Source: Hirudinaria manillensis (lineage: Eukaryota; Annelida; Clitellata; Hirudinida; Hirudinidae). Taken from it: a DNA stretch of 64,000 nucleotides. The notes under the pieces were generated by a model. That model saw nothing but the letters and a program-made list of their open reading frames with translations, made no database searches and was not told the origin of the DNA. Below are positions 126 to 54,786 of the stretch, piece by piece. A program made the translations under genes and the position numbers. The stretch is from NCBI GenBank assembly GCA_034509925.1, contig CM067529.1:12963501-13027500 (forward strand), given 5' to 3'. Position 1 is the stretch's first letter; every line of letters starts with the position of its first letter.

Positions 126-1469
126 CTAATCTCTTTGAGAGGTCAGAAATGAAGCTCTCTTCTTCGAGCAACAAATAAGCAACAGTATTAACATAAAAAG
201 GGCTATAAGAGCAAGCCAGAAGTGAAAACGTTCCATTTCGTGTCCAGGATGTTCAGTAGTCCACTCCTCTTCCGACCAGTTAAGGTCTGAAAGGAATTAG
301 AAATTGTGATATCTAGACGACAAACGTTCCTACATGATTTAACTATCAAAGTTCCTACGCTTAGCACAAGTGAAATTGTCCACACTGAAATATCCTGGTC
401 GACAAGAGCATTGGTAGAAAGGCTGAAAGTTTATGCAAAATGATGTCTTCGTGTCGCATTTGTCTGGCACTTCACACTCGTCAATATCTGACAATTGGGT
501 AGATTCAACAAATCGTATCGTATTTAATTAATAGTATTAATATTAGTTAATATTTAATTAATACATTAAATCTCTCAGCGTTAGCAAATCTTTACTTACC
601 CTGGCATTCAGCGAGGTGAAAGGATTTAAATGTTTTCGATCCTTCCGGACAGAGGCAATCGTATGATCCTATCAAATTGATGCAAGGCACTCCGTCAGGG
701 CACATCTTTGCAGGAGGTTCACACTCGTCTTCATCTTAAGACTCAAATAATTGTACGTTAATACCGAAATTGGATACCATCTATGCAAAGCAACCCACTA
801 TTTATATATATATATCACGTTCTGGCTATGAACGTGAAAGTCAAAAGAACACGTTTCTCTATACCTTCACATTGAAACCATTTTACAGTACGATAACCAT
901 GGAGACAGGAACACATGAAAGAACCAGGTGTATTAACACATTCCGTAGAATTCAAGTCGCATCCTGTGCGACCTTTACACTCGTCAACATCTGGCAACAT
1001 TGCAGGCACAATTATTGGTAGCTTAACTAATAATAATATTACTTAACTAATATTAATATTAAATCATATTATTATAACGATAACGGTATCAAGAAATCCT
1101 ACATAAAAAGTCTGCATCTAGAAATATTAGCTTGGAATAAAAAGGGGTTCCAAATCTCAGTTAATTATTTCTAATTATTTCTAATAAATTTTATAATTTA
1201 TAAAATATATTTTTATAATAAAAATAATTTATAATAAAATAAGTAAAACCTATGCAATTTCCAGAATTTTCCTTTTCATATCCGGCAATACAATTGCAAT
1301 CGTAGGAGCCAATGGTGTTGGAGCAGCTTTGGTGTTCGCCACAAGCATCCGAATGTTGGCACTCGTCGTAGTCTGTAAATGTTTTAAACATTTAAAACAA
1401 TATTTAGGTACATTTGAGAATTGCATCGAAATAAATAAATAAATAAATAAATAATAAATAAATAAATGA

Positions 1470-1516
<47 letters not shown>

Positions 1517-3476
1517 ATGAATGTTGATCATTAAAACATAAACTTTTGCCTAGATGTTACCGCAAATTATTCAGATACAAATTCCAATAAGATTTTAATT
1601 TGTTTAGTGTACGTTTTTATTTATTTATTTCATTTATTTATTTATTTATATCCTAATTCAATGCCAACAGAAACTGTAACACCACAAAACTTTGCCACAT
1701 AATATTTTAAAATTATGCCCCCAGCAAAGTTTAAAATATTTTCAAATAATTGTTATTTATACCTTGGCAGTCTATGGCATTTCCAAAATACCCTTCTGGA
1801 CACCTGCACAATCCAAAGGTGTAACCCAATAATTCAAATTCTGAGCATTCTTTTGAACAGTCGCCATTGGCTACAGAACAGTCTTTGCAGAAAGGAAAAT
1901 AATACATCAATCTTGGAATGATAAATGAAAATATTAAGTCTGGCTCCAAGTATTATTGCATGATGAATCGTTATTGACTTGAACAATGCCAGTTAACCGT
2001 GAAATACCCTTATTGTCCCACACATAATAAACGTTTACCTACAAACTCGCAGTTATATCCAATTTTTCCAGAGCAGACATCGCATTCCTTGAAATCTTGC
2101 ATGCATTCGTATCGCAACGGATTCGAAGAACGGTCGCTTCTGACATTCAGAAAACCTGAAAATTTCAATTTCAATTTATCAATAATTGCTGACCACGAGA
2201 CGATGCACTTAATTTACGTAATTGAATTTCCTGACTCGAATAATAAAATTACCCGTCTTATATATGGCAAAGTACTTCTGTTGAATCCCAGCGAAATACA
2301 AAGGACTCGTAACAAATCCACACAAGGATAGTTTAATAGTCACGAACTTTGACAAATCCGTGAAGCAAAAACAATCTCCGACCTAAATCGACTAGTTTTT
2401 ACATAATCCATCTGTTTCTACCGTTTAGAAATTTAACTTTAAATCTTAAATTAACAAATTAAATTATTTTATTTAATTTTCTTTAAACTTTAAAATATAA
2501 GTTCAAACAATTCTACTGAATGCGTCAGTTACCGAGTTAATACCGGCATAGGACGATACGTTAACACACCACAAACTGCAATCGAGAACCGAAGAATCTC
2601 CTGGTTGTTTGGGAAAGCGGTGAAGTGAAAGCAAGTCGAATTTGGCTTCAAAGCACCCTAAGTATCCCTCAGGAAATGGCGCTGACGTATATAATACCAC
2701 CACGTCATAATACTTATATTCATAATCATATATTTTTATTGAATGAATATAAATATATCATTAAATAGTTAATGGAAAATATTGCGAGAGCCTCTGAATC
2801 GGAGCCTGTACCCTCTAAACAAAAGCAATCACCACATCGATATATATATATATACGAGTGTATTACCACGTCCACTGGCTTCCAATGCTCCTCTGGGTTT
2901 CTTTTCAATTATTATTTTCCTGGATAAAGCCATGCAATAAAAGTCGAAAATTTCTTCATTTATCTTCCTCTTGCATTCCTCGAGCTTATTGCCGATAACG
3001 TGTTCGAGCGTCACCTTTGGATCAAGTAAATGTAAACTGGAACCGGCTGAAATCAAGTTTTGCATTAAAGATATTGCTCTGTCTTAATCAGGCTTGTAAA
3101 GGTCATTACGTTAGTGATTAAATTAAAAATGCTGAAAAAAGCAATGCAAATCTTAAATCAGTTCAAAACGTGATGGCTCAATCGTATAATCGAATAATTG
3201 AAGAATTTTAAAGATAAGATACTCACGAAGTAAACCTATCCTCACCCTAACGACAAAGTGAGACATAATTAAATGTATTACTAATTTATCGTATTGTTCC
3301 ACTAATAACGTATGAGATATCACTTTATCACCGTGCAAGAGCACCATATTTAAACCGTCAATTGGAAATCGGATGCTCATATTATATAGTGATTCAATTA
3401 GACTTTTGTTCGATTTATCCAAATCTGCCAACGACACCTCGAAACACATAAACAGTTGTAAAACAATGCTGAACAT
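126..3476 (-). CDS. Gene A2: WSC and EGF type I membrane protein, 4 cbEGF, left copy
   Basis: Eleven exons in coding order: 3227-3476, 2867-3046, 2533-2681, 2253-2382, 2039-2155, 1763-1882, 1250-1372, 865-990, 600-734, 359-487, 126-286. All junctions are GT-AG and in phase, giving 539 residues. The start MFSIVLQLFMCFEVSLA is a signal peptide and aligns with the start of the paralogues; an upstream in-frame Met has no such support. Residues 84-143 end in the family motif SRKIII-x-KKPRG. Residues 144-236 are a WSC domain, but its second half lacks several expected cysteines (the CxxC and CG motifs of gene B read CGF and YFAG here). Two Cys-rich exons follow, then four cbEGF modules (DYDEC, DVDEC, DEDEC, DIDEC) and a membrane segment (FHFWLALIALFMLILLLICC) with tail SKKRASFLTSQRD. 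It is likely a cell-surface protein; ligand and partners are unknown. A near-identical copy lies at 15624-18925. Confidence 0.85.
1429..1518. repeat. (AAAT)n microsatellite in a gene A2 intron
   Basis: About 90 bases of AAAT repeats lie in the intron upstream of the first cbEGF exon. The duplicate tract near 16893-16960 is shorter, so this is one of the few visible differences between the two blocks. A second tract of TTTA units sits at about 1614-1650. Confidence 0.9.
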
Positions 3477-4351: not shown

Positions 4352-4825
4352 TTAAGACACTGTAGATGTTGAAGTGGATGATTTTCGAGAACCCGCAAGC
4401 GTCGCTTGCGTGTCGAAGAAACAGGACAACGTGATTAACACAATGATGACTGAAAAGGCCAAGAAAAGGATATTGAGGTGAAAACGGTCAATGCTATCGA
4501 ACTCATCGCTGAGGTTTCTACTGCTAGGCCAAGTCGAATTTTCTGAATAGTTTTCATCGCCTGTAAGTATTTGGAAAGCATAATTTACAAATTATCGTTG
4601 CATGTTGTTATTTTGACACAGCTACTAGGAAGCAAGTCTTACCTGGAACACAGTTAAAATTGTCTATGCTAATATACCCGAGCCGACATGCACAGATGTA
4701 GGAAGTAATGGTGTTTAAGCAGTAGGATGAAGTCTCGTTGCACATGCCCGCCATTATACATTCATCAATGTCTAAAGTAGAATCGTCTTGTTCAATCCAA
4801 ATCCGTCATTTCATCAATGAAAAAC

Positions 4826-5150
4826 AGATGCATAGAAGTCACTTTGAATCAAGGAAGAACTATATGCTATTAATAAATTAATTTATTTGATTTAAAATAA
4901 AATTTTGTTGACAAAACACATAAATTGTCATTTTTCTATGAGTGGCCATAAGCATATTTCTATGCCTAAAAATGATTTTTTTGTTGAATTTACACTTAAT
5001 TCTTAATCAAAGTAAAAAAAAATTTAAGATATATATTCTATGTGAATAATATACATAGCCTCTTATTTTGGGCTTTTTATGACCATTAAAATTAGGGTTA
5101 TCATAAAAAAAAGTGTTAGGTCATAAAGTTTCTTCTACCACTGTACTGTA
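4826..5150. repeat. Dispersed mariner-like fragment in an intron (A1 copy)
   Basis: This intron segment, from ATGAAAAACAGATG to the right end CTACCACTGTACTG, recurs at about 20266-20605 (B), 32179-33312 (C, split by a LINE), 39817-40155 (D) and in a different intron of gene E (about 51622-51974). The E copy keeps only this segment and joins other DNA at its end, so it is a mobile repeat and not conserved intron. Its right end matches, inverted, a CAGTGGTCGAAAAAATG end at 50138 in gene E. That suggests a Tc1/mariner-like family with TA targets. Confidence 0.55.
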
Positions 5151-6404
5151 AATCATCGATTTTGTCTTTAAAAGTGAAATTACCTTCGCATTCAGTAACG
5201 TGGAAATACTCAATTTTCCTCGTCCCTTCTGGACATAAGCAATCGTACCATCCAGGATAATTGACGCAAGGCACTCCAGTTGGGCATTTTTTCTCTGGGT
5301 GAGCGCATTCGTCAATATCTTAAAGCACGAAGTCTTTTTTAGTTCATTCAACATCGAAGATCTACTTATACATCTATTCACCCTTAATATGATTATCTTA
5401 TATCCATTTCTGGGCTTATTAAAAAAATAGTAATTATAACAACTGGTAGGTTAAGCAAGAATTATTGGTAAATTAGGTCAAGTCATTTGTCATATCATTG
5501 TAAATCATCAAAAGCCATTTCATGTCAATTCCTTTTTAAAAATGTCCACCAACAGGTGTAAGTTCGAAAAATAAATATTTTATATCGGAATAAAATTGGA
5601 CCACAAGAGAACGACATGTTATAAGTTCTATATTTCACCTGTGCATTTGTTCCGCTTTAAAGCATGATAACCACGGAGACATGCGCACTTGAATGAACCG
5701 ACCAGGTTCACGCATTCAGTTGAGTTGGGGTCGCATTCCTCGACATTTCTACACTCGTCAATATCTTATTATTTAATAATAATAATAATAAAATTAATAT
5801 TTAAAATTTAACAATCGATGCTTACTAATATTATACTTTTTTTTATTTTAAACTCATTTTTATTATTTTCCTTTTATTTTTAGAGAAAGGGCGATTTATA
5901 TTCTGAACAGAAAATGAAATAGGTCAAAAGTTAGGTTAAAAATAAGGTCTAGAACTTAAAGGGACATTTAAAAATTGATTTAAGATTTTAGAAGAAAAAC
6001 CTTTGATTATAAGCTTATTATTTGAACGCAGAAAACACTTAAAATTAGATTTTTACATTTATTAAATCACAAATTCATTAAATAGCCGAAAAGATTACCA
6101 GATTATTGGTCAAATCTTAAAGTATCCAGCAACACGTAATATTAATTGGACTAATAGTACTCTATCCCTAAATAGTTCATGTACCCAAAGATAATGTATT
6201 TCTATGTAATATGTATATGTAATGGTATTTTGATTGAAAAATAAACCTTGGCAAGAAGTTGCCGAATACGTTTCGTATCCTTTGAAGCATTGACAATCAT
6301 AAGAACCATCGGTGTTGATACATTCAGAGGTCGAACTATCGCATTCGTTGCCAGTTTTACATTCGTCAATATCTTCAAACATTGGAAATATATAATAATA
6401 ATAT

Positions 6405-6528
6405 TGTTGGATCCCTAATAATCAATAATTAAAATTATATTGTCACTCAATTTAATTAATTACTAAATTAATTAATCAGCAATATAATTTTAATTATTCT
6501 TCAATCATCTGGATCTAGGGATCCAACA
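6405..6528. mobile_element. 124-bp solo LTR (A1 intron)
   Basis: The segment begins TGTTGGATCC and ends GGATCCAACA and is flanked on both sides by the 4-base duplication ATAT (6401-6404 and 6529-6532). It also contains an internal inverted repeat, AATTAAAATTATATTG against CAATATAATTTTAATT. TG...CA ends and a short target duplication are the marks of a solo LTR. The related gene-E fragment at 48435-48460 has the same TGTTGGATCC end directly after a purine tract. Confidence 0.7.
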
Positions 6529-7674
6529 ATATCAACAACAACAACACTCTAAAACCATTCTCCATTTCGTAAATGTAATTTGAACCTTTGCAAGTTTCAT
6601 GCTCAATTTTATATCCGGACGTGCAACCGCATCGATAGGAGCCGGCAGTGTTGGTGCAGGTCTTGCCCTCATCGCATAAATATGGATCCAAGCATTCATC
6701 TAAGTCTAAGAAAAACAATTTGCAAAAACCTGTTTAAAAAAAAGTTAAACAGTTTTCCATCTGATAGTTTCCCCGCGTCCGTTTTCGATAAACATACTGA
6801 CAATTACAGTAAAGTAATGAACTAACCCTCACAAGACGTTGGAGAGCTTGACTTTACGAATCCCGAAAGGCAATTACATTTGTAAGAACCAGGAATATTG
6901 AGGCACTCGGTGGAACTTCTGTCACAATTTTCCTCCAGGCATTCGTCAATATCTTCAAATATCGCATTTGAAATATATAAATTAAAAAATACTAGAAATC
7001 CATTTCATAATTTGAACCTTTGCACGTTTCAAGCTCCTTTTTAAATCCAGACTTGCAACTACATTTAAAGGAGCCGATAGTATTGGTGCAGTCCATATCA
7101 CCGCATGACGATGGATCCAAGCATTCATCTTGGTCTAAGAGAGTGTAAAAATTTGTAATTGAAAAAAAAATAAATAGTTTTTATTCTTACAGTTTCCTGT
7201 ACTGTTTACAGTCCGCCTTCGATAAGCATAACGACGATTACACTAAAGAAACGAACTAACCTTCACAAATAGTCGGAAAGCTTGAATCTTTGAATCCTAA
7301 AAGGCACTTGCATTCATAAGAACCAGGTGTATTGACGCACCTAGTAGAACTTCTGTCACAATTTCCCTCCAGGCATTCGTCAATATCTTCAAATATCGTA
7401 CTTGTAATGCAACAGAAAAAAATTCTAAAGAAAATTGCTTTTCAGAAATTTTAACCTTCACAATGTCCACTATCCAATTTATATCCAGTTCTGCAACCAC
7501 CCACACATTCAAAGGAGCCAATAGTATTGGTACAATTCTGGCCTTCTTCACAAATAGACTTATCCGTGCATTCATCGTAATCTAAGGATGGCGAAATGGA
7601 AACCAATATTATACTTCTCCGTAACATTTAGTCACATTGATCTTCTCACAAAATACATAAATTCATGACATAAT

Positions 7675-9556: not shown

Positions 9557-9790
9557 TCAAATTCGAAAGTATTGCGCGCTTGGATAAACCAGAAATTAAC
9601 AAATGTTCTTCAATTTATTAAAAATATACATTTAAGCACCAATTTGTTACCGATAATTATTGATTAATTTAACGACAAAGCTCGTCACCAGGAAAATTTA
9701 AAACGAATCCTACGCCTCACCTGTGTTGTTTACATGTCTTCTTAGGACTCTCGCTGGCGGATTTTCTGAACGGAATAATTACAATCGGAA
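9557..9790 (+). promoter_or_regulatory. Upstream region of the PDI gene
   Basis: Only 234 bases separate the duplication edge from the PDI start codon, so the promoter and 5'UTR must lie here, start inside the gypsy remnant, or come from an upstream exon. A possible splice acceptor (GTCTTCTTAG at about 9737-9746) precedes GACTCTCGCTGGCGG, which would fit a 5'UTR exon boundary. I see no clear TATA box. Confidence 0.35.
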
Positions 9791-15510: not shown

Positions 15511-15623
15511 AAGTTGTATGGCTCAAATTATAATCAAAAGAAATCAAAGTTCCAGAATCGTAAAATCGCAACTATCAAGTGCGATAGGATTGACGCTTTA
15601 CCAAATGTCGGAGATGACGAGGC

Positions 15624-16894
15624 CTAATCTCTTTGAGAGGTCAGAAATGAAGCTCGCTTCTTCGAGCAACAAATAAGCAACATTATTAACATAAAAAGGG
15701 TTATAAGAGCAAGCCAGAAGTGAAAACGTTCCATTTCGTGTCCAGGATGTTCAGTAGTCCACTCCTCTTCCGACCAGTTAAGGTCTGAAAGGAATTAGAA
15801 ATTGTGACATCTAGACGACAAACGTTCCTACATGATTTAACTATCAAAGTTCCTACGCTTAGCACAAGTGAAATTGTCCACACTGAAATATCCTGGTCGA
15901 CAAGAGCATTGGTAGAAAGGCTGAAAGTTTATGCAAAATGATGTCTTCGTGTCGCATTTGTCTGGCACTTCACACTCGTCAATATCTGACAATTGGGTAG
16001 ATTCAACAAATCGTATCGTATTTAATTAATAGTATTAATATTAGTTAATATTTAATTAATACATTAAATCTCTCAGCGTTAGCAAATCTTTACTTACCCT
16101 GGCATTCAGCGAGGTGAAAGGATTTAAATGTTTTCGATCCTTCCGGACAGAGGCAATCGTATGATCCTATCAAATTGATGCAAGGCACTCCGTCAGGGCA
16201 CATCTTTGCAGGAGGTTCACACTCGTCTTCATCTTAAGACTCAAATAATTGTACGTTAATACCGAAATTGGATACCATCTATGCAAAGCAACCCACTATT
16301 TATATATATATCACGTTCTGGCTATGAACGTGAAAGTCAAAAGAACACGTTTCTCTATACCTTCACATTGAAACCATTTTACAGTACGATAACCATGGAG
16401 ACAGGAACACATGAAAGAACCAGGTGTATTAACACATTCCGTAGAATTCAAGTCGCATCCTGTGCGACCTTTACACTCGTCAACATCTGGCAACATTGCA
16501 GGCACAATTATTGGTAGCTTAACTAATAATAATATTACTTAACTAATATTAATATTAAATCATATTATTATAACGATAACGGTATCAAGAAATCCTACAT
16601 AAAAAGTCTGCATCTAGAAATATTAGCTTGGAATAAAAAGGGGTTCCAAATCTCAGTTAATTATTTCTAATTATTTCTAATAAATTGTAATTTATAATAA
16701 AATAATTAAAACCTATGCAATTTCCAGAATTTTCCTTTTCATATCCGGCAATACAATTGCAATCGTAGGAGCCAATGGTGTTGGAGCAGCTTTGGTGTTC
16801 GCCACAAGCATCCGAATGTTGGCACTCGTCGTAGTCTGTAAATGTTTTAAACATTTAAAACAATATTTAGGTACATTTGAGAATTGCATCGAAA

Positions 16895-16930
<36 letters not shown>

Positions 16931-18925: not shown

Positions 18926-19800
18926 ATCGAAACGATGAGTTACAGTTCTGTAGAATTTAAAAGAAGAAATGTGAAAATCTCCACGTCGGATTTTACGTCC
19001 AGAAACAAAACATAAACAACGTCGACTTGCGTTTTCAAAAAAAAAGGCGGAAATATTCGTGTGACTGACGGTGAAATTTCTACGACAATCTAACGGTTGA
19101 AATATTACTAATATTTTCATGCTTAAAAAATAAAACAACATAAATAGAAAAAATGCAGGTATAAATTTAAGAAATTTTACAAAATGATTGCAAATTCAAT
19201 AATTTAAAGTGTTTTCAGACGTCATGTTATAGTCCGTAAGTGTCCTCATGAAAATTTGGCCTTTTCTTCCTAAGAGGAGTCACACAAACCTAAAAGACCT
19301 TCAGTATAAATTCACAAAGCTTTGAGTTCACCTTAATAACAAACTTTAAGTACAAATGTAAGCCCGGAGATGCTTTCAGTTGATTAATTTAAATCATCCA
19401 CTTATAAAACAGTCCGCTCATACCGCCTACTTAAAATAATCTGGATTTATTTCATTATTCAGCAACTATTATCCATTATTTAAAAATAAACACAGCGGAA
19501 GAAATAATTACTTCTGACTGGCGCCATGGAGACTATACTCTAAAGCTATGAAAGTTACGATTATAATTTCAAAACCAGAAATGCCGAAGTCAACAAATGT
19601 TTCGAAAGTTTATTTATAAAGTGAAGGGAATTGTTTCGTAAAATACTTCAAAATCTCAGAACAAAATAAAAAGTAATGGATAAATTTAAAACGATGGTCT
19701 TTACTTCGAACAACGTTATAAAATACCAAATACACGTCCAAATACCTACGTTGTTATTGTACACGAACATAGATCTCAATTTTTCTCGAATTTAATACAC
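18926..19800. other. Intergenic DNA between genes B and A2'
   Basis: Near-identical to 3477-4351. No gene is seen. It should contain the 3'UTR of gene B (minus-strand AATAAA at about 19611-19616) and the promoter of A2'. The promoter side shares no obvious block with the region upstream of genes B, C and D. Confidence 0.5.
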
Positions 19801-39351: not shown

Positions 39352-42300
39352 CTAAGACACTGTAGATGTTGAAATGGATGATCTTTGAGAACCCATAAGC
39401 GGCGCTTGCGTGCCGAAGAAACAGGACAACGTGATTAACACAATGATGACCGAAAAGGCCAAGAAAAGGATACTGAGGTGAAATCGATCGATGCTATCGA
39501 ACTCATCGCTGAAGTTTCTACTGCTAGGCCAAGTCGAATTTTCCGAATAGTTTTCATCGCCTGTAAGTATTTGGAAAGCATAATTTACAAATTATTGTTG
39601 CATGTTGTTATTTTGACACAGCTACTAGGAAGCAAGTCTTACCTGGAACACAGTTAAAATTGTCTAGGCTAATATACCCGAGCCGACATGCACAGATGTA
39701 GGAAGTAATGGTGTTCAAGCAGTAGGATGAAGTCTCGTTGCACATGCCCGCCATTATACATTCATCAATGTCTAAAGTAGAATCGTCTTGTTCAATCCAA
39801 ATCCGTCATTTCATCAATGAAAAACAGATGCATAGAAGTCATTTTGAATCAAGGAAGAACTATATGCTTTTAATAAATTAATTTATTTGATTTAAAATAA
39901 AATTTTGTTGACAAAACACATAAATTGTCATTTTTTCTATGAGTGGCCATAAGCATATTTCTATGCCTAAAAATGATTTTTTTTGATGAATTTACACTTA
40001 ATTCTTAATCAAAGTAAAAAAATTTAAGATATATATTCTATGTGAATAATATGCATAGCCTCTTATTTTGGGCTTTTTATGACCATTAAAATCAGGGTTA
40101 TCATAAAAAAAAAGTGTTAGGTCATAAAGTTTCTTCTACCACTGTACTGTAAATCATCGATTTTGTCTTTAAAAGTGAAATTACCTTCGCATTCAGTAAC
40201 GTGGAAATACTCAATTTTCCTCGTCCCTTCTGGACATAAGCAATCGTACCATCCAGGATAATTGACGCAAGGCACTCCAGTTGGGCATTTTTTCTCTGGG
40301 TGAGCGCATTCGTCAATATCTTAAAGCACGAAGTCTTTTTTAGTTCATTCAACATCGAAGATCTACTTATACATCTATTCACCCTTAATATGATTATCTT
40401 ATATCCATTTCTGGGCTTATTAAAAAAAAAATAGTAATTATAACAACTGGTAGGTTAAGCAAGAATTATTGGTAAATTAGGTCAAGTCATTTGTCATATC
40501 ATTGTAAATCTTCAAAAGCCATTTCATGTCAATTCCTTTTTAAAAATGTCCACCAACAGGTGTAAGTTCGAAAAATAAATATTTTATATCGGAATAAAAT
40601 TGGACCACAAGAGAACGACATGTTATAAGTTCTATATTTCACCTGTGCATTTGTTCCGCTTTAAAGCATGGTAACCACGGAGACATGCGCACTTGAATGA
40701 ACCGACCAGGTTCACGCATTCGGTTGAGTTGGGGTCGCATTCCTCGACATTTCTACACTCGTCAATATCTTATTATTTAATAATAATAAAATTAATATTT
40801 AAAATTTAACAATCGATGCTTACTAATATTATACTTTTTTTTATTTTAAACTCATTTTTATTATTTTCCTTTTATTTTTAGAGAAAGGGCGATTTATATT
40901 CTGAACAGAAAAGGAAATAGGTCAAAAGTTACGTTAAAAATAAGGTCACGAACTTAAAGGGACATTTAAAAATTGATTTAAGATTTTAGAAGAAAAACCT
41001 TTGATTATAAACTTATTATTTGAACGCAGAAAACACTTAAAATTAGATTTTTACATTTATTAAATCACAAATTCATTAAATAGCCGAAAAGATTACCAGA
41101 TTATTGGTCAAATCTTAAAGTATCCAGCAACACGTAATATTAATTAGACCAATAGTACTCTATCCCTAAATAGTTCATGTACCCAAAGATAATGTATTTC
41201 TATGTAATATGTATATGTAATGGTATTTTGATTGAAAAATAAACCTTGGCAAGAAGTTGCCGAGTACGTTTCGTATCCTTTGAAGCATTGACAATCATAA
41301 GAGCCATCGGTGTTGATACATTCAGAGGTCGCACTATCGCATTCGTTGCCAGTTTTACATTCGTCAATATCTTCAAACATTGCATTGGAAATATATAATA
41401 ATAATATTGTTGGATCCCTAATAATCAATAATTAAAATTGTATTGTCACTCAATTTAATTAATTGCTAAATTAATTAATCAGCAATATAATTTTAATTAT
41501 TCTTCAATCATCTGGATCTAGGGATCCAACAATATCAACAACAACAACACTCTAAAACCATTCTCCATTTCGTAAATGTAATTTGAACCTTTGCAAGTTT
41601 CATGCTCAATTTTATATCCGGACGTGCAACCGCATCGATAGGAGCCGGCAGTGTTGGTGCAGGTCTTGCCCTCATCGCATAAATATGGATCCAAGCATTC
41701 ATCTAAGTCTAAGAAAAACAATTTGCAAAAACCTGTTTAAAAAAAAGTTAAACAGTTTTCCATCTGATAGTTTCCCCGCGTCCGTTTTCGATAAACATAC
41801 TGACAATTACAGTAAAGTAATGAACTAACCCTCACAAGACGTTGGAGAGCTTGACTTTACGAATCCCGAAAGGCAATTACATTTGTAAGAACCAGGAATA
41901 TTGAGGCACTCGGTGGAACTTCTGTCACAATTTTCCTCCAGGCATTCGTCAATATCTTCAAATATCGCATTTGAAATATATAAATAAAAAAAATACTAGA
42001 AATCCATTTCATAATTTGAACCTTTGCACGTTTCAAGCTCCTTTTTAAATCCAGACTTGCAACTACATTTAAAGGAGCCGATAGTATTGGTGCAGTCCAT
42101 ATCACCGCATGACGATGGATCCAAGCATTCATCTTGGTCTAAGAGAGTGTAAAAATTTGTAATTGAAAAAAAAATTAAATAGTTTTTAATCTTACAGTTT
42201 CCTGTACTGTTTACAGTCCGCCTTCGATAAGCATAACGACGATTACACTAAAGAAACGAACTAACCTTCACAAAAAGTCGGAAAGGTTGAATCTTTGAAT

Positions 42301-45300
42301 CCCAAAACGCACTTGCATTCATAAGAACCAGGTGTATTGAGGCACCTAGTAGACCTTCTGTCACAATATTCCTCAAGGCATTCGTCAATATCTTCAAATA
42401 TCGTACTTGAAATGCAACAGAAAAAAAATTCTAAAAAAATTTTCTTTTCAGAAATTTTAACCTTCACAATTTCCACTCTCCAATTTATATCCAGCTCTGC
42501 AACCACCCACACATTCGAAGGAGCCAACAGTATTGGCACAATTCTGGCCTTCTTCACAATTAGACTTATCCGTGCATTCATCGTAATCTAAGGATGGCGA
42601 AATGGAAACCAATATTATACTTCTCCGTAACATTCAGTCACATTGATCTTTTCACAAATAAATACATAAATTCATGACATAATTCAATTCTTCCAATATT
42701 TTAAGTGCCTTTTTTATCCAAGTCCAGCCGACGCACATTAGCATAGACACGACCGAGCACAACACAATGAAATAATGAGAACGAAAGACAATTTTTAAAA
42801 AATGCAAACTAAAATATTTAAGAATAATTAATACTGGTTTATGTCTAAACGCTAAAGTATGATTTGTAAATTGCAGACGGCAATGTAACAAATTCTAAAT
42901 AAGGATGTAGTACTAAGTCACAACCTTCACAATCTTCATATCCAGTAAAGCCTATGGGACATCTACAAAATTCAAAACTCCGGACGAAAAGCGAAACTGC
43001 CGTGCATTCGTTTTGGCAACGACCGTTGTCTGCAGAGCAAACTTTTCAAAAAAAAAAAAACAAAAACAATGGCCAAAGGAAGTCAATTTGAATATTTAAA
43101 TTTGAAATTTTTCTTGTTCTCTGTAAACATGGCTGAATTTTATGACAGCTTTGTTTATTCGATGTCATTTTCAGGTGTCTGAATGAGCTAAGCTTACACC
43201 AACTTGAACCTCCTCATGACGCCGATTAAATGCGTCATAACATGGTGATTTTATTTGTACCTTGCATATTTACTTTATGAGTTATACTATAATTGAATCT
43301 TTGAATGAGTTAAAAACATTATTAAATCATCGGAAGAATTATATCTGCGAAATATTGCGTAAGAAAACAATTATTTTTACCAGGGAACTCGCAATTGTAA
43401 CCCTTTGACCCGGTCGGACATTCCCCACACATGTCAACATATTCTAGACAATCATAAGCCACTGGATTTTCCAGGTGATACTTCCTTACGTCCTCTTCAA
43501 CAATATGTATTATGTTATGTATATATATATATTATATATATTATAATGCCATGAAACGTAATTTATTATATATAATATATTGACAATTAACACCTGTCTT
43601 GTATAAGCCGAAGTAAACATCCTTGCTTCCGCAAAAATAGAGTTTATTTTTAGAACAACCTCTACATGATTCCAAATCGATGGAAAGGAATCTCATCAAG
43701 TTGTTGGCGCAACAACACCTCTCAGCCTAAGTCGTGTTGAAGCAACAACAGTAACAAACATTAATATTAAACTAGTACATTAGTATTAAACATTGCTATT
43801 AATATTAAACATCGCTATTAGTATTAAACCACATCAACGTATTAGATGAATGCTGATTTCCAATGCAATCACTAGTACGATGTAAATCAGCAACAAAACA
43901 ACAACAACGATAAGACTAAGCAACGACTTAGAGGAATTATCAGTTAAGTAATTATTGCCTACAATATAGTGAAATTATAAAATGAATTAAATCATGAAAA
44001 TAGTGAAATCAATTACCGAACTAAAGCCAAAGTACGAGGCTCTTTTCCCGCGACAAAATTCTGCACATTCGGTGGTAGTTGTGCCTTCATCGCCAGCATC
44101 ACCATACAAGTTTTCCAAATTACCTTTATATTCGTAACAACCGGCATAGTTCTCAATCAGTGGCTCTGAGTTGAAAAACCAGTGTGAGAATGTATGCAGA
44201 GGTCTTTATGATTTTTTTGCGATTACTTTTGATTGATTCATTCATTTTACGAATTTGGTAATGTCGATTGGTTTAATGAAATCTTATCAAAAATGAAAAT
44301 TTGTTTTATAATTTTACTATCATTCCTGGATATGTACTCTAAAATCACTATTTGCAGAATCTTTTTTCTTAAAGTTTCTCATAATGTTAAGGGCTCCAAC
44401 ATATTTTAATAATTCTTTCAGCATGCCAATATTATGTACGTTGTTTCTTTTCTTCTATTATCTCAAAGTCCTTAACTTACTTTCTACAATAATATCGGCA
44501 AATGTATATAAACAATTGTACGTACAGTAAAACCTGCGTATAGGGACAGTTAGAATTTTCGCGAAGATAGTGCCCTATATGGAGGTTGTCCCTTTTATAG
44601 GCTGTCGACTGTTAAGCAAAAGTATAATCGGTTCCTAGAAAAAAACATCCCTTAGGTCAGGTTTTATACTAAATTCGGGTGCCCCAATTCACAGGTTTTA
44701 CTCTATTTAACTAATCGCCATAACATGATTCATTCTAAGAATCGTTGTTTTACCACGTCCGTGGACTTCTATGGTGGTGTCTCTAGGTTTGTTTTTAATA
44801 ACAATTTTTCTGGACAAATCCATGCAAGTAAATTCCAAAGTCCCTTCGAAATCGGTTCTCCTGGGGCAACCCTTCATTTCATTGCTACCAGCATATGCTA
44901 TGGACACTTTTGCCTCTTTAAAGACCTCACCTGGACCAGAGCTAGCTGAAAACAAGCTTGTAAAATATATAATTAAGTCTAAAACATTAAAAAGAACGAG
45001 CTAATAATGAGGGAAAGTCAACTACATTCCGTTATGTTTACGAACATCAAAATATATGGCGAAAGTATAAATTAATGTATTCAAAATATGTACAAGTGAA
45101 GTACAACAGTAGCAAATGGGTTCCCCGCCATGCTCGAATTGATGCATTAGAAATGAGTACTCACGCGATATCTTCAGTTTCACTATTTGTACATGGTGGG
45201 TTATAAGTAGATCAATTATTAATTTGTCGTATTCCCCAGTTTGTCGTTCATAATTAATGTCTGAATACTCGGACAAGACACGCATAATATTCCAAGGGAT

Positions 45301-45411
45301 TTGATGGATTTCGTAAAGACGTGTTATATCGACTTCATTGTCACAATCACCTATTTCGGCCAAAGATATCACATGGACGAAAACCGATAATTGTATAAAA
45401 CAACAAAACAT
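39352..45411 (-). CDS. Gene D: WSC and EGF type I membrane protein, 9 cbEGF, compact form
   Basis: Sixteen exons in coding order: 45165-45411, 44754-44945, 44017-44165, 43594-43726, 43381-43494, 42925-43041, 42462-42587, 42266-42391, 42022-42138, 41830-41955, 41589-41708, 41245-41370, 40643-40768, 40185-40319, 39643-39771, 39352-39560. In-frame, 763 residues, each exon the same length as in gene B. Signal peptide [19 protein letters not shown]-terminal region, WSC (YFGFSS, CRGC, FCGS, YFGLYK), two Cys-rich modules, nine cbEGF modules, membrane segment, tail ending STSTVS. It has no gypsy, LINE or MULE insertion and is the best reference for the family. The deduced protein would project a WSC head on a calcium-stabilised EGF rod about 14 modules long in total. 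Confidence 0.9.
41408..41531. mobile_element. 124-bp solo LTR (gene D intron)
   Basis: Same position and ends (TGTTGGATCC, GGATCCAACA) as in A1 and B, which shows that the insertion is older than the duplication that produced them. Confidence 0.7.
44525..44703. mobile_element. MITE with CAGTAAAACCTG ends (gene D copy)
   Basis: Ortholog of 29623-29798, flanked by TA at 44523-44524 and 44704-44705. Confidence 0.7.
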
Positions 45412-46277: not shown

Positions 46278-47003
46278 TCAATCCATAGACATTGATTCAA
46301 AAGTGCCACCCGAAGATAATGTGGACTGATTTCTCGTAAGCCTCATAATCAAAACATAAACAAGTCCCGTCATTATAAGGAGAAGCAAAACAAACGTTAA
46401 AATGACAAAAAGAATGTAAGCGCCATAATAACTACCAAGTCGCTCTTCGGCTCGATGAGTGGTGGTCAACGTCGTCGACTCTTCCGACCGTTTGATGCTG
46501 TCTGCAAGCGAAATTTCGATTGTTTCAAGCAATGCCTGTCAGTTTGGAACGTTGGAAACGGCTTTAACTTACCAAGTTTACATGTAAAGTTGTCAATAGT
46601 GACGTATCCCGTTCGACAAATGCATATGTAAAAAGGAAACGTGTTCAAGCAAAACGACGTGGTAAATTCGCACTTGTTAATTGAAGCACACTCGTCAATG
46701 TCTAGAAGTGTGTTTAAAAATGATTTTGTATAATTCTTCGAGTATTCTTATTAATCTAGAATAGATTCTAATTATTATTTTACCCTCGCAATCGAAAAAG
46801 CTGTGGTAATTAAATCTGACCGTCCCCTTTGGACAAAGGCAATCGTAAGACCCAACCGAATTTATGCACTTCACTCCTTCAGGGCATTTTGCTTTGCCAG
46901 GTTCACATTCATCCTCATCTTTTAACGGTCAACGTTTAATGTCAATTCTTTGTGTTAATTTCAGTGCTTTTGATGAAAAATAATAATAACAACAACAACA
47001 ATA

Positions 47004-47036
<33 letters not shown>

Positions 47037-50000
47037 ACTACGTTTTGTGTTTTCGTTAACGTTTGTAGTTAAAATTACCTGCACATTGAAATCGATCCAT
47101 AACAAGATAACCTTCAAGGCAGGAACACTTGTAAGTTGCAATGGTGTTATGGCAACGTGTTGTATTTTGGTCACATCTATGTAAATCTTTGCATTCGTCT
47201 AGGTCTGCTTGAGTATGTTTACAATTTGATATACTGTTTATATTTACAACTAGCGGTGCCCAGCCACGCGTTGATTAATATTAAAAGAAAGAAATTTAGC
47301 ATATATTAGGGTTAGGGTTATCTTAACCCTAAAATGCCTATTTTCGTCCATGGCAAGATGGCCGTTTTTTCGAAAAAAGCGTATTTTTACATGATAGAGT
47401 TGTGGCATACATATGAAACCTATATACAAACACTCCTCTAATCGAGTACTATATTGTGCCAAAATTTCAAAGCAATTGGTTAAGTACTTTCAGAGAACAC
47501 TTACATGATACAAACACACATTGCATTTTTATTTATATAGATTTAAACTTTAAACTAATATGCTATTAAATGTTTATTGCTAAAAGTCCAGAAGCTTGCT
47601 GATTGCTTTATGTTGTGATGCTATAAATACAGAATCTTTTTAACCTTTTCTCATGACATCTTTAACAGATATTAATACAATAATAAGTCTAACCCTCCAG
47701 GTTATATAAATAAATGAGTACAGGGGATTAAATATCTGGCTTCTGGACGGTCTAATGCGCTCGGGAATTTCACTTAACGTAATAGTTGCTCTTGTAACAA
47801 CCAATATAATGCGATTAAACAAATTTAGTACAATCTTATAAATTGATGATTTGATTATCCATGTTCTTTTGGTCATTCCAATGATGAATTTCAACGGGTT
47901 TCAACAAAATTCTCCTTTATATAGTTTTCTTACCTAGGATTTAAATAAAAGGATGGACAGTTCATGTGAAGGAATGAACTAACCGTCACAAGAAGTTGCA
48001 GAGTCTGACTTTTGGAATCCCGAAAGGCACGAACAACCATATGAACCAACGCTATTGTTGCACTCGGTAGACGTAATGTTGCAATGGTTTTCCATTGTGC
48101 ACTCGTCGACATCTTTAAATATTATGTTAGAAATGCATTTTGTATGTAACTTAAATCGCATTAATCACGAATGACAAAACTGGAACTTCTACAATCATCT
48201 TCTCAGCCTTTTCCATGGACATCTACATTCGAAGGAACTGAAGTAAGAGTTTAAAGCAAATTTTATGTACGTGACATTCGTTTAAATCTTATGATGTAAT
48301 TTTATGGTGCAAGGAAGTGAATTGTTTGTTCAAAATTTGTAATCATCAAAATATGTGGCAAGAATTTAAAAAAAAATTTCCTTTTGTTATCAATAAACAG
48401 ACTATAAAAAAATGAATTGACCGTCACAAGAATATTATCTGGATCTAAGGATCCAACACTGCCCCCTCCTTAAATCTGTTCGTCCCGAACAGACATCTAT
48501 TCCCATTTTCATTTTCACTTTAGGAATAGGATCCGATTGTCTTCCAACAATCTCATGGCTGCGAATCTCAGATCCTTTTGCTTGGTCCTCTACTGGGATT
48601 TCTGTTTCCTCCCTTTGGCTCCTGTGTCCCGCAACTTTCAGTCGCGGAACGTCGCCACTTCCATGTACGCCCTCCTGCTCCACCATGTCGCCAGATCTCA
48701 AACTGTCTATAGGATCAGCTGCTCCACTTTCCATGCTAGGCACTCTCCCGAAATCCCGAGCACTCCTTTCCGTTATCTCCAATGGAGCCGAAACATCCTC
48801 TGGTAAATCCATGGCCTCTCCCGAAGACTTCATTTGTTCCAGTACTAACTCCGTGTGTTCCACTGGTAACTCTATGTGCTTCATCAGTAACTCCTCGGGC
48901 TGCACTAAGAACTCCATAGGCTCTGCACAGGGACAGACAAAGAAATGTACTAACCCTCACAAGAGGTTTTTGAGCGGCTTGTTTTGAATCCTTCAAGACA
49001 CATGCATTCAAAAGAACCAAGTGTGTTGAGGCAGGAGGTACTTGTTATATCGCACCTAGAATTTCCCATCAGGCATTCGTCTTCGTCTTCAAATATTATA
49101 TTGGAAATATTGAAAAAAGTCAAAAACTCTTTGCTATTCATATTGTAATCTGAACCTTCGCATATTCCAGACCTCATTTCATATCCATCTCTGCAGCTAC
49201 ATGAAAATGAGCCTTGGATGTTTTTGCAGATTTGGTACTCACCACATGCATATGGATCCTTGCATTCATCGTAGTCTGAGATTGATGAAATGGAAACCAA
49301 TATCACACTTCTCCACAACATTTAGTTATATTGCTCTCTTGAAATTCTTGCCCTCCCACGAAAGTCATAAATTCATGCAGGAATTATAAACTGTTTTATC
49401 TCGAAATTGCTAAATTACGATTTAAGAATTACAATGACGTTAATGATACAATTACTAAATACAGATGTAGTACTTTACCTTCACAATGCGAATCATCTCC
49501 GGTTGAGCCTTCGGAACATTTACAAATGTATGACGGCTTGTCGAGAAGTAAAATTGGCAAGCATTGATTTGGACAACCACCTTTTTTTACAGAACAATCT
49601 TTTTAAAAAAAAATAGCAAGAGAAAGTCAAATTGACAATAAAAATTTTAACTTTTTGTTGTTCACAGCAAAAGTGACTGAATTTAAAAAATGACTTGTTT
49701 TTGGTAAATATCATTCAGGTTAAGTTTTCCGATGATCTTGTTAATGACAAAAGCATAACAATAGTTATAACAATAGTTTGCAACAGTGTTATAGTCCATT
49801 AAAAAAAGCCTCTAATATAGAATAAGTAAACACCTGTTAAATCCAAATTTCACATTGAATGTTTACTAAGCTACTAAGTCAGCATTTTCAATGAATTACA
49901 AATACTTTTAAATCATGGAAAGAATTATTCATGTGAAATATTGCACAAGAAAACACGTTTTTTACCACGTAACTCGCAATTATATCCTTTCCTCGACTTA

Positions 50001-53000
50001 GGACAGCCCGGACACTTGGACCGATCATCTAGACATTCATAACTTGGTGGATTTTGCAGATGATTCGCCATGATATCAACTTAATATGTAATTTTATAAT
50101 GTATAATTTATAATCCTGACTGTAATAACACATAGTACAGTGGTCGAAAAAATGTTGAGGCCTACCCATTTTTATTACATAACTTCCTTATAATTAAGTT
50201 ATCTTGCTGAAACTTACGTCATTTACGTAACTTATAGTTTGTGGACATCCTGAAAAATTTCTTTTCCTATAGATCAATGATCATGTAAATTACGCAATTG
50301 ACCGAATTTTGACAATGAAATAACTAAATGACTACTTTCCTTTTAGGCACATTTGAGATTGTTAAAAATTTAGTTAAATGAACCAAACATTAAATTACCA
50401 TTATAATATAATATAATAGGAATTACAATTCAAAACTTCCTTTATTATATTTTTATTTTTTAGTATATTTTCATCACGGGGAAGAGACCAAAAAGTTCGA
50501 TCCGGAATGCTATAGCCTTGCAAGTATCTTCAACAGTTGCAGGATTCTAGGAGCAATCCCATCCAGCTGGAAGACACCAAGGACAATACTTCCCCACAAA
50601 GGGGAAGCCCTAGATGTTGCACGGAACTGGCGACCCATCTCGCTGATCGATGTGAAACTATACAGTTCAATCACAGCAAAAAGGCTTATGGTCTGGAATA
50701 TGACGGAGCATAAGCAGTCCCAGGGCAGAAAGAATTCATGCCCTTCGAAGGTTGCCTGGAACATAACTTCACGCTCCAGTCAGCGATACAGGATGCGATA
50801 GGGAAAGGACTTCGGTGGCCTGGCTCGATCTAACCAATTCGGATCAGTACCACGCGATCTGGGAAGCCTTAGAAACCAAAGGACAAGCAAGAGAGGCCGT
50901 GACAAAAATTGCGGAACTATACAGAGAACTCCATGATTTACCTGATTCAAGCCATCCTTTTGCCTTAAACATATGAGGAAATAGTGGAGTAGTCGTACTG
51001 CTGCTACGAGTTACAATTCGTAGAATAAAGTAAGTAAAGAAAAATATGTTCCTGTGGAGCAAACTTGCAAAATGTCACAATGACTGAAGAGAAAGGGCAA
51101 ATTGAGGCATTCAGGAAAGCAAATTATTCGAAAAGAATAATTGCTAGAGTGGAAACGTTCAAGGGGTGCTATCACAAGTTTTCACAAGCTGTGTATGCCA
51201 ATATCAGAATGAAAATGAATTAAAAGAGGCAATTTGGACTGGCTGAAAGGAACTGAATAAAAACACCGTCAATAACAATAATAATTCGGTTTGTTAGAGT
51301 GGCATATGTCCAGTGGACTTCAAGGCCACTGAGGGGGGTGGGGGTGACTTTCCCTGAAGAGGAAGTTCTTCAGGGCGGAGTGGAAGCCGGCTGGGTCTGA
51401 GGTCGTCACTGCGGGATCTAGTCTATTCCAGGTCCTGGGGCCGATGACGTCGATGGAACTACCATCGAGCATAGTGCGATTGGCGTGTGTGCAGAAGAGA
51501 AAGCCTCTGGATGTGGAGCTGAGGCCGCTTCTACCTTGGAGGTGCGCGCTGCTGGTGGTTGGCAGGACGGTGAGCAGCCCAAGAGAGATTTAAAAATCAG
51601 CGTGGCTATCTTGTAGTCGATGAAAAACAGATGTATAGAAGTCATTTTGAATAAAGTTAGAACTATATGTTATTAAGAAATTAATTTATTTGATTTAAAA
51701 TAAAAAAAATTGACAAAACACGTAAATTGTGATTTTTTCTATGAACGGCTATAAGCATATTTCTATGCCTAAAAATGTTTTTTTTTTGTGGAATTTGCAA
51801 TTAATACTTAATAAAAGTAAAACATTTAAAATATATATTCTGTGTGAATACTGTTACTTATATACTTATATATACTATCTATCCTCTTATTTTTGGGCTT
51901 TGTATGACTTTTAAAATCAGGGTTATCGTAAAGAAAAAGTTGTAGGCCATAAAGTTTCTTCTACCACTGTACTGTATTAAATTTAATGACGAATAATACT
52001 TGTCTTATATAAACCGAAGTGGGTCTTCGTCTTTCCACACAAATAAAGTTTGCTTTCAGTGCAACCTCCATCACACGATGACAGTTTGACGGACATGAAA
52101 TCCTCAGTACTAACGATACAATAACAACTCCCATCCTAAGTCATTTTAAAACAACTAATAATAAATTTACCACAACCTCGTCTTAAATGCCGAATACCAG
52201 TGCAATTACTAATGCAATCAGCAAGCAACAACAGCAACACCATGCAACCAATGGAGTGAATTATCAATTACCAGGTTAAAGCCAATATATGGCGTCGTGT
52301 TGCGACAAGCGTTGGCGCAATCGAATATAGAGATATTTTCCTTTAAATTTTTATCTAGATTTTCAAAATTGGCCATGATCTTGTAACAGCCCAGAAAGTT
52401 CTCAACTTGAGACTCTATTGTAAAAATAAAGAAGCCAAATTTAGATTTGTTAACGGGCAAAAAAATGAACTTTTTTTTATAATTCAATGGCCATTCCAGT
52501 GTATGTGCTCCAAAATCACTTTTTGAATCATAATTTTTTGCCATGTCTTTAAATTTCCTATAAAATAAGGCGAGGTCTCCAAAATGTTCTATTAAAACAA
52601 ATTAATTCAAATAATAACAATATCACCAAACGAAATGAATATTTTTATACTAACGATACAATAACAACTCCCATCCTAAGTCATTTTAAAACAACTAATA
52701 ATAAATTTACCACAACCTCGTCACTGACATGTATTGCAACTTTACAACCGTACTTTAATTGGTCAACTCTAGGGTTAGGGTTAGGATTAGGGTTAACTCT
52801 AATGCACCCTACTACATTAGGTCTTAAGATTTTTCTGAATTACAAAATGTAAAAAGAAGGTTCATTCAGGACAAAAAGTAAAACAATTATGGCCAATGAA
52901 TTCTTTCGAAATATGTTTAACAAATTTTTGTATAATTCATTATTTTGGATTTCAAATTGACTTTTTATCTATCACATATGTATTTCATATATAGTCAAAT

Positions 53001-54786
53001 CTTGTTACTACTCGTTACTTTTTGTCCTGAATCCCGCCCTTCGGGACCGAGCAAAAGTGGCATAGTAACGAAGGTTTGTAAAAAGGGCCTTACTTTATCA
53101 AATAAAAATGGCCTTATTTTCTCAAGTTACCCATCAGCTCAGTCTAAAGCTCTCAAAAATCATTTGCTGCCGCATCTTCTTTAGGCGGATCTCGTTGTCT
53201 AGCCGATCGCACGCTTGCATTACACCGTACTTGTGAATCCACCGCTCCAGCTTCGCCCTGCAATGTCTTGAACAATGATGCCGTGGCGCTTCACTCCGAC
53301 TCACATCAATCTTCACTCCAACTCGCAACTCCCTCTCGACACCCACTCTCATTCCTATTTACATTCCCAGTCAACTTTGCCCATTCGACCAATCCAATTC
53401 CATGGAATGTTCCATCACCTTCCTTAATCATCTCTCAGCAACAATTCCTGGGTAAGTATTAACCTGATCAAATCCTAAAAATACAAGGTAATGTCTCTCA
53501 ATTACTTCCCTGACTGGGAATATGTCTTTAACTTCATGAGTTAGATGTCAGGACTCTGGTGGCATAGTAGCGGGAGTTGAGGGTGGCATAGTAAATTTAT
53601 TTTGTATTGAATTTTGTCGGGACCGAACAAACATGGCGTAACAGCGAAATTGGCACAGTTCCGAGATTTGACTGTATAAAAAATTTAAATCAAGATATTT
53701 CATTTCAAGAATGTAGACAGTCAATTCAATTCCGCAAATATTTTAAGTGCCTTTTTATCCAAGTCCATAGTTTGTCAAGGCACTGCCAACAGTCGGTTTA
53801 AACATTTGAAACCATCATATATAAATTGACTCTGAACTCATATTTGCACACTAAGAAAGATTTTTGACGTTCAGTGATATTGTTACACCCGATTTATTAG
53901 TGTTCCCAGAACATTTTACATCATTTGAACCCAAGAACAATATAAAGGTCACTGTAGATAATATAAAATATACATAACATATTTTATTGACAAAACAATA
54001 CCTGTATAAAAAATAAATATATATATTTAACCACCATCAAAACATAATTTATTCCATTTACATTTTTCGTGAATCCAAATAAAAATGAAAAAAATTGTTG
54101 CTATACCACGTGCGTACACTTCTATAGCGATGCCACTAGGTTTCCTGAGAATAATAATTTTTCTGGACATAGCCATGCAAAGAAAGTTATACCCTTTTTC
54201 TTCTCTTGTCTTGTGACAATCTCTAACTTTATAGTTGCCAATTTCTTCTATGATCACTTTTGCCCCTCCAACCATCTCATCTAAATTAGAGTCAACTGAA
54301 AACAAGATTGTAAAGTTGTATAATTAAGTCTAAAACAGTAAAAGGAATGAGCTAATAATGAGGGGAGACTACATTCTGTGAAACAAGACTTGTCTAGTAC
54401 ATTGTATATTGACAAACGCCAAAATATATGGCGAAAGTATAAATTAATATTCAAAGTATGTACAAGGGATTGATAGATTTTGTAGAATAGTAACATATGG
54501 GTTCTCAGCCAAGCGGTCCACGAACCTCGAAACGATACATTATAATTGAGTACTCACACGGTAGCTCTGTACACAACTTCACCGTATCTACGAGATGGGT
54601 TATAATTAAATCGATTATTAATTTATTGTGTGCTGCAGTATGTTCTTCATAATCAATGACCGAACGACTTGACAAGACACGCATATTATTCCATGGGATA
54701 TGACGAAATCCGTATTTCGATTCGTTCCCATTTGTCATAGATATCACATGGATAAAAACCGAAAATTGTATAAAACGATAGAACAT
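46278..54786 (-). CDS. Gene E: divergent WSC and EGF type I membrane protein, 6 cbEGF
   Basis: Thirteen exons in coding order: 54558-54786, 54107-54295, 52272-52414, 52000-52135, 49966-50079, 49479-49598, 49156-49275, 48955-49086, 47984-48112, 47079-47204, 46784-46918, 46573-46701, 46278-46501. In-frame, 641 residues. Signal peptide MFYRFIQFSVFIHVIS; N-terminal region with CMAMSRKIIILRKP; WSC with GCY, DCANACR, YIGF, SCYC, CDGGC, LCG and HFGLYK, the most canonical WSC of the array; two Cys-rich modules; six cbEGF modules (DYDEC, DEDEC, DVDEC, DLDEC, DEDEC, DIDEC); membrane segment (AYILFVILTFVLLLLIMTGL) and a distinct tail ending TFESMSMD. Introns are unlike those of B-D and hold several mobile elements, so E split from the others early. 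Confidence 0.87.
46979..47038. repeat. (TAA)n with AAC-rich edge in a gene E intron
   Basis: A simple repeat about 60 bases long between two cbEGF exons, mixing TAA and AAC units. Non-coding. Confidence 0.85.
47250..47545. repeat. Probable short dispersed element (SINE/RTE-tail-like) in gene E
   Basis: The segment runs from GCGGTGCCCAGCCACGCG to ATTTATATAGATT. It contains the phrase TTTCAAAGCAATTGGTTAAG followed by an ACAAACACACATTGC tail, a layout common to RTE-type LINE tails and SINEs in invertebrates. It also has a TTAGGGTTAGGG run at 47306-47320. The family is not identified. Confidence 0.4.
48410..48930 (-). mobile_element. LTR retroelement 3' remnant inside gene E
   Basis: A GC-richer minus-strand frame of about 160 codons (48435-48917) ends at a purine tract, AAGGAGGGGGCAG, followed immediately by TGTTGGATCC, the start of the LTR family seen at 6405-6528. 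The frame is acidic and Ser/Glu-rich and matches no domain I know; it may be the C-terminus of a polyprotein. Beyond the short LTR piece, the plus-strand bases GACCGTCACAAG look like the 3' edge of a lost cbEGF exon with its donor. Confidence 0.55.
50480..50985 (+). pseudogene. R2/NeSL-type reverse transcriptase fragment
   Basis: Plus-strand reading gives SWKTPRTILPHKGE, NWRPISLIDVKLYSSITAKR and, after frameshifts, VAWLDLTNS and AIWEALETKGQAREAV. These follow the order of RT motifs in site-specific R2/NeSL-type LINEs, up to the first catalytic Asp motif. At least two frameshifts and an internal loss are visible. It is dead. Confidence 0.7.
51300..51635 (-). pseudogene. LINE C-terminal fragment (CR1/L2-like)
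   Basis: Minus-strand reading gives YKIATLIFKSLLGCSPS and, in another frame, IDVIGPRTWNRLDP and FHSALKNFLF, the usual C-terminal end of CR1/L2/Jockey reverse transcriptases. It is frameshifted and 5'-truncated. Its GC content is clearly above that of the surrounding intron. Confidence 0.7.
52109..52182. repeat. 74-bp direct repeat covering the start of a gene E WSC exon
   Basis: Identical to 52649-52722 in the intron upstream. It includes the first 27 coding bases and the acceptor site of exon 52000-52135. The other copy is a partial exon with a duplicated acceptor. Confidence 0.9.
52649..52722. repeat. Second copy of the 74-bp repeat (decoy acceptor)
   Basis: It lies in the intron between exons 52272-52414 and 54107-54295. 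It carries the WSC exon's acceptor and first nine codons without the rest of the exon. Confidence 0.9.
52770..52798. repeat. Interstitial telomere-like TTAGGG repeats
   Basis: AGGGTTAGGGTTAGGATTAGGG lies in a gene E intron. Shorter runs occur at 47306-47320 and 57614-57636. They are too short for a telomere. Confidence 0.75.
52993..53676. mobile_element. Pogo/Tigger-like element in gene E intron
   Basis: Left end ATAGTCAAATCTTG; right end, inverted, CAGTCAAATCTCG. The CAGTCAAA-type end is typical of pogo/Tigger elements. Inside, GGGACCGA and GGCATAGTAA motifs repeat. A minus-strand frame of 72 codons (53134-53352, with CRAKLERWIHKYGV) is GC-richer and unidentified. No complete transposase is seen. 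Confidence 0.5.
53728..53795. repeat. Small hairpin repeat shared with genes C and D
   Basis: TTTTAAGTGCC, then TATCCAAGTCCA, and TCAAGGCACTGCC form a stem. The same unit is at about 35278-35335 (gene C intron) and, shortened, at 42690-42727 (gene D intron). It is probably a tiny non-autonomous element. Confidence 0.5.

Follow-up and report, generated by a model that had tools for sequence, protein, structure and literature searches.

A tandem array of WSC- and EGF-containing genes in the leech Hirudinaria manillensis: putative membrane receptors with a probable lectin-type head

What kind of protein is encoded by a gene that a leech carries in seven copies, side by side on one strand? The question is raised by 64,000 nucleotides of the Hirudinaria manillensis genome (assembly GCA_034509925.1, contig CM067529.1, called C4 here), which comprise C4:12963501-13027500 and are referred to as the window; the genome searched consists of 148,429,096 bases in 23 contigs. 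Matches to annelid erythrocruorin linkers (PF16915, 8 at E <= 0.001) and to hirudin exons on C4 itself (PF00713, 4 at E <= 0.1) agree with a hirudinid leech; one candidate erythrocruorin linker was set aside, having no match in PDB. As the original prediction had stated, positions 126-54786 of the window hold seven copies of one gene type on one strand; this is the minus strand, and the copies lie in the order A, B, A', B', C, D, E. Both limits hold to the base: A's stop codon ends at 126, and E's ATG starts at 54786. The predicted order of modules is likewise borne out, with a signal peptide, an N-terminal region, a WSC domain, two EGF-like Cys modules, 4-9 calcium-binding EGF modules (cbEGFs), one hydrophobic span, and a short tail; the signal peptide, span, and tail were called by eye, with no predictor. 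All cbEGF motifs matched by a pattern scan of the window lie on the minus strand. Copies B', C, and D can be spliced from end to end through GT-AG introns to one final stop, and A and E were recognized by their modules, exon by exon and with no end-to-end splicing; A' is a duplicate and B is truncated. The number of cbEGFs is 9 in D, 9 in B', 5 in C, 6 in E, and 4 in A, and the stalk thus changes in length from copy to copy. There is about an even chance that this is one array of leech type I membrane receptors that function in surface recognition, adhesion, or capture.

Gene D (39352..45411, minus strand, as are all its parts) is complete, with 16 exons, introns that are all GT-AG, and a single terminal stop after 777 amino acids. 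After the signal peptide, exons 1 and 2 (44712..45357, intron included) encode the N-terminal region, which is read here as a degenerate FTP/F5-8C-type jelly-roll domain. Exons 3 and 4 (43594..44165) encode the WSC domain, with a phase-0 intron within it, and exons 5 and 6 (42925..43494) encode the two Cys-rich EGF-like modules, whose invariant cysteines align with those of copy E and of two paralogues outside the window, P and L008. Nine cbEGFs, one per phase-1 exon, follow in exons 7-15 (39643..42587), as seen by motif scan, splicing, and Pfam. Exon 16 (39352..39560), placed by splicing, contains a juxtamembrane stretch, the hydrophobic span, and a Ser-rich tail in which no signalling motif was seen by eye. 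The search of the D protein against a protein database, which the original prediction had proposed as a check, readily identifies the stalk: Pfam EGF_CA (PF07645) matches nine stretches with an E of 1.2e-72, and the D-x-D-E-C calcium motifs are present.

Judged from sequence, the WSC label is correct but has weak support. The WSC stretch of D, taken in isolation, scores 27.4 bits against Pfam PF01822 (E 4e-6), just under the cut-off of 27.8, and that of paralogue P scores 27.8, the cut-off itself. A full-length Pfam scan of D does not have WSC among its matches, and a genome-wide WSC search, in which 150 of 333 candidates were scored, has no row within the window; in our opinion the domain is missed in both because of its divergence and of the intron that interrupts it. 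Paralogue P lies on the plus strand at about C4:12930465-12937520, 26-33 kb to the left of the window, and has the N-terminal region, WSC, Cys modules, 5 cbEGFs, and a hydrophobic span. Paralogue L008, at C11:2664484-2667591, was retrieved through its WSC domain, of which it has a pair (E 7.5e-30). When D, P, E, and L008 are aligned from WSC through the Cys modules to the cbEGFs, leaving out the second L008 WSC, 23 cysteine columns are invariant, and the two Cys modules of the window genes align with EGF-like modules of L008. No relative turned up when prokaryote genomes were scanned with the WSC-Cys part.

Insight into the N-terminal head comes from L008. A genome search with the head of D itself has 10 matching places at E <= 1, every one inside the window, and the original prediction had called this region undescribed. 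That description is probably wrong, because L008, whose order is FTP-WSC-WSC-Cys-Cys-cbEGF x3-transmembrane span (a signal peptide exon is not established), has a recognizable F5_F8_type_C_2/fucolectin domain in the same two exons. The L008 head matches PF22633 (F5_F8_type_C_2; E 5.7e-9) and PF00754 (E 3.8e-7), both above cut-off, as well as the fucose-binding lectin 3cqo (E 3.3e-8). In both D and L008 the head consists of two exons, each followed by a phase-1 intron; a phase-0 intron divides the WSC domain, a phase-1 intron follows it, and exon 2 measures 234 nt in D and 237 nt in L008; the splice sites and phases of L008 were read by eye from the DNA. A script found both a donor and an acceptor in phase 1 at the FTP split in 17 of the 17 FTP loci examined, as in D, these being candidate sites in DNA, with most of the 17 loci also showing sites in other phases. 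Finally, two FTP patterns, one of them occurring in all 14 FTP loci used and the other in 12, were sought in four window-type sequences (D, A, E, and P). The exon-2 pattern is present in all four, with a shuffle chance of 0.003-0.007 each, and the exon-1 pattern in three (D, E, and P, not A), with a chance of 0.006-0.039 in those three. Gene structure and position, rather than sequence scores, make it likely that the window head is a strongly diverged fucolectin/F5-8C-type (FTP) domain.

A number of results weigh against this assignment. The two patterns were framed after the sequences had been seen, and the four sequences tested are related to one another. Pfam gives no F5/8C match to the N-terminal region of D, A, E, P, or two copies of a sister array, S (described below), the scans of P and one S copy yielding unrelated names only, under cut-off; a PDB search with the region also has no match. 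With hhalign, comparison of the region to FTP gives P 0.18, from 13 columns that are out of register; with HMMER, eight sequences rank at 0.02-0.31 among shuffles; full-length profile comparison is no better than shuffles (17/60 local, 60/60 global); and one cross-pairing of exons scored equal to the correct pairings. AlphaFold returned a pLDDT of 53 and a largely helical exon 1 for the intron-retaining reading, and a model that is all-beta save one short helix, with a pLDDT of 63, for exon 2 alone, from which a fold search obtained no meaningful match. The His...Arg-x-Asp fucose motif, which is the sugar motif of F-type lectins, is present in domain 1 of 3cqo and in 0 of 6 window-type sequences; given its absence, the head may instead bind a protein or some other glycan.

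These direct similarity and fold tests, all negative or inconclusive, would also be expected if the N-terminal region were an unrelated domain that replaced FTP, its fast change reflecting relaxed constraint, or gene conversion elsewhere. Conversion or patchy ancestry does exist in the array, since B/B' and D do not differ at all in EGF exons 9-11 and 14 (100% identity). However, the agreement with FTP exons in exon count, phases, and exon length argues against an unrelated domain, and relaxation alone should hold the rate of change within the neutral rate, which the head exceeds. We regard such a replacement as rather unlikely.

The rates were obtained by comparing B', C, and D, three related copies only, with each change counted once. 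Over its 139 codons the head has 30 non-synonymous and 4 synonymous changes. Its non-synonymous changes (30/331) accumulate at about twice the rate of changes in the flanking non-coding DNA, taken as 600 bases upstream plus introns 1 and 2 (58/1361; p 0.00085), and the excess is also seen against all seven aligned non-coding stretches (87/2136; p 0.0002) and against introns 2, 5, and 7 pooled, three of the fastest (53/946; p 0.04). Within the protein, the head changes about four times faster than WSC (5/223; p 0.001) and faster than the five cbEGFs common to the three copies (20/501; p 0.004), and the signal peptide has 2/48. The Cys modules (16/180; p 1.0 versus the head) are also fast, and the membrane/tail part (9/162) gives p 0.21. 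Pairwise omega for the head together with the signal peptide comes to 1.12, 1.25, and 3.42, and among the first 415 residues the amino-acid changes cluster at 96-115, with 11 in 20 residues, a clustering as extreme as that in 169 of 10000 shuffles. Other comparisons weaken the case for selection: taken singly, introns 5, 7, and 14-15 do not differ significantly from the head (p 0.14, 0.48, and 0.06), nor does the comparison of non-synonymous with synonymous changes in the head, with its 4 synonymous changes, reach significance (p 0.27). Intron 3 is unusually conserved (3/290), which indicates that local rates vary and that conversion is possible. The amino-acid change in the head above the flanking non-coding rate supports a recognition role and bears out the original description of a receptor-like, tandem, same-strand, fast-changing array. 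Given that excess, recognition is the best reading of what remains a putative role.

Such a receptor would work through a head that binds ligand, consisting of the diverged fucolectin/F5-8C-type jelly roll and then the WSC domain. The EGF modules would form a stalk, stiffened by calcium, that carries the head, and one membrane span with the short Ser-rich tail would provide the anchor. The most probable action would be that the N-terminal head binds directly to proteins or glycans carried by microbes, food, or other cells. Tandem duplication supplies the copies, loss or gain of cbEGF exons alters the length of the stalk, and positive selection would diversify the head, where the receptor would contact its ligand.

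The other copies illustrate how the array is built. Gene C (31716..38044, minus strand) is complete, with one terminal stop after 614 amino acids, and its 5 cbEGFs lack the counterparts of D exons 9-12; an open reading frame that we read as LINE-like reverse transcriptase lies at 32422-33165 in one of its introns. Gene B' (19801..30532, minus strand) is also complete, with 777 amino acids, 9 cbEGFs, and one terminal stop, and its intron 6 contains a Gypsy-type element with gag/pol-like open reading frames at 24327-27504. Gene E (46278..54786, minus strand) is a diverged copy with the N-terminal region, WSC, Cys modules, 6 cbEGFs, and a hydrophobic span. An intron of E holds a 173-amino-acid open reading frame (48435-48956), which recurs near the sister array (L024-L025, about C4:12.863 Mb) and in L007 and is probably part of a dispersed repeat. 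Gene A (126..3476, minus strand) has the N-terminal region, WSC-like exons, Cys modules, 4 cbEGFs, and a hydrophobic span.

The two remaining copies arose with a duplication in which 1-9556 and 15511-25006 are 98.9% identical. A' (about 15600..18930, minus strand) is the duplicate of A, within the 9.5 kb of 98.9% identity, and B (4352..7581, minus strand) is the duplicate of the 3' half of B', with the cbEGFs and the membrane exon and with exons 1-6 missing. That B is truncated follows from the lack of any blastn match to D exons 1-6 at E <= 1e-3 between B and A'. The possibility that the duplication is an artefact of assembly was considered and is disfavoured; a tandem duplication is preferred because the first copy ends inside the Gypsy element and the stretch from 9.6 to 15.5 kb lies between the two. 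Gypsy-type retrotransposon open reading frames are found at 23294-27504, in intron 6 of B', and, as a partial copy, at 7844-9614. Since this partial copy (7.8-9.6 kb) ends at the duplication breakpoint, the 9.5-kb duplication is younger than the Gypsy insertion. Adjoining the array on the plus strand is a 650-amino-acid open reading frame (59381-61333) with no Pfam match at E <= 1.

The array is not isolated, and WSC/EGF genes form a larger set in the leech, to which it belongs. At E <= 0.001 the genome-wide search for WSC has 96 matches, each of them an exon and not a gene. They fall mainly at C12 1.00-1.41 Mb (28), C11 3.33-3.62 Mb (28), C2 4.23-4.29 Mb (8), C11 2.65-2.67 Mb (5), and C4 12.84-12.88 Mb (4). 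Some of the top matches are other WSC proteins, which we read as xylosyltransferase-like (L003) or as having C-type-lectin-like exons (L001 and L002). The search for FTP, in which 150 of 232 candidates were scored, gave 150 matches at E <= 1, 90 of them on C10. The region C10:2525917-3274362 holds 87 of these 90 (150 having been scored overall), and is a very large lectin-type array. When all 150 FTP places, plus 13 of 115 places from a further search, were compared with the WSC matches, an FTP match was found within 5 kb of 8 of the 96, all on C11 or C3. In most scored WSC matches, which have no recognizable FTP nearby, the head was therefore lost, diverged as in the window, never present, or missed. 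The sister array S, C4:12833000-12876500 (L021-L026), shares its strand with the array in the window; in each of its repeated genes the N-terminal region looks F5/8C-like, and WSC exons are accompanied by an EGF-like module and a single observed cbEGF. An assignment of this N-terminal region to the F5/8C domain, suggested by its look, was rejected, being unsupported by Pfam or PDB.

Among the genes of this set, L008 and its FTP/WSC neighbours (C11:2.63-2.67 Mb) most directly bear on the window genes, which they resemble in domain order, intron phases, exon-2 length, and the 23 cysteine columns. They differ in that L008 has a canonical FTP domain, two WSC domains, and three cbEGFs, whereas in the window genes WSC is single and the head is beyond profile recognition. 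The likeness to F-type lectins and FTP domains (FBP32, 3cqo) is through the L008 head match to 3cqo; unlike F-type lectins, the window copies are without the sugar motif and without the AVDGN-like core of many FTP loci, and the domain lies within a membrane receptor. Snail FREPs are an expanded invertebrate family of lectin or IgSF-lectin type with a changing recognition domain. The window family is likewise expanded with such a domain, but its domains are different and its members are, by prediction, membrane-bound. Glycerotoxin of the annelid Glycera also combines cbEGF and WSC in one annelid protein and has paralogues; however, it is described as a venom protein of 1256-1257 amino acids with two WSC domains, a CCP domain, and a C-terminal part without a known domain, and FTP is absent among the domains named there (PMC5336659). 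The same source treats WSC as a putative carbohydrate binder (PMC5336659). The claim that no named family has this order stands within the open-licence literature, where no match to an FTP-WSC-cbEGF receptor order was found.

The cbEGF stalk invites a different view, in which the products belong to the matrix or to elastic tissue and, as a family akin to fibrillin, help the gut or body wall to stretch after a blood meal, as has been proposed for leech FBN1. The cbEGF arrays are shared with fibrillin and leech FBN1, and they would be expected to resemble fibrillin in a similarity search. TB domains, though, mark true fibrillins, and gene D has no TB domain by Pfam. In the genome TB matches fall at one locus only, C12:2666095-2689666 (2.666-2.690 Mb), with 9 of 9 at E <= 0.1, which is probably the genome's single fibrillin or LTBP gene. 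With TB matches at a single locus, twelve true fibrillins are unlikely in this genome. The number twelve comes from a comparison of leech genomes, in which FBN1 is reported to have 12 copies in two blood-sucking leeches and 4 or 0 in non-blood-suckers, and its expression generally goes up during feeding, interpreted as helping the body to swell (PMC10087013). The WSC domain, the hydrophobic span, and the FTP-like, diversifying head of the window genes also misfit a microfibril protein, and we consider a matrix function improbable. The published leech FBN1 genes may instead be, partly or wholly, cbEGF receptors like the window genes.

A receptor could also be selected for diversity between individuals, as in self/non-self or gamete recognition, rather than for binding to microbes or food. 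The tandem same-strand array, the recent 98.9% duplication, the diversifying head, and the single hydrophobic span all suit such a function. We know of no allorecognition system in leeches, which weighs against it, and we give it a slim chance. Shed or secreted ectodomains that bind host platelets, collagen, or glycans during blood feeding are as improbable, for although this is the genome of a blood feeder and proteins with F5/8C domains, their roles yet to be established, are reported for Hirudo saliva (PMC7191736), the spliced genes retain the hydrophobic span and tail.

The reading of the array as surface receptors extends, more tentatively, to the wider set. It is possible, though we would not presume it, that leeches have a superfamily of dozens or more genes, in one array of which the lectin-type head has diverged beyond recognition under positive selection while the WSC, stalk, and anchor stayed constrained. 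Such a superfamily would be an annelid counterpart of FREP-like receptors, hidden in annotation under names such as FBN1. In our judgement the recognition receptors of annelids are poorly known. If the reading is true, medicinal leeches possess arrays of FTP-WSC-cbEGF membrane receptors whose heads diversify, which would be candidates for recognition of non-self, symbionts, or food, and a published blood-feeding trait, the expansion of FBN1, could shift in meaning from elastic tissue to surface recognition.

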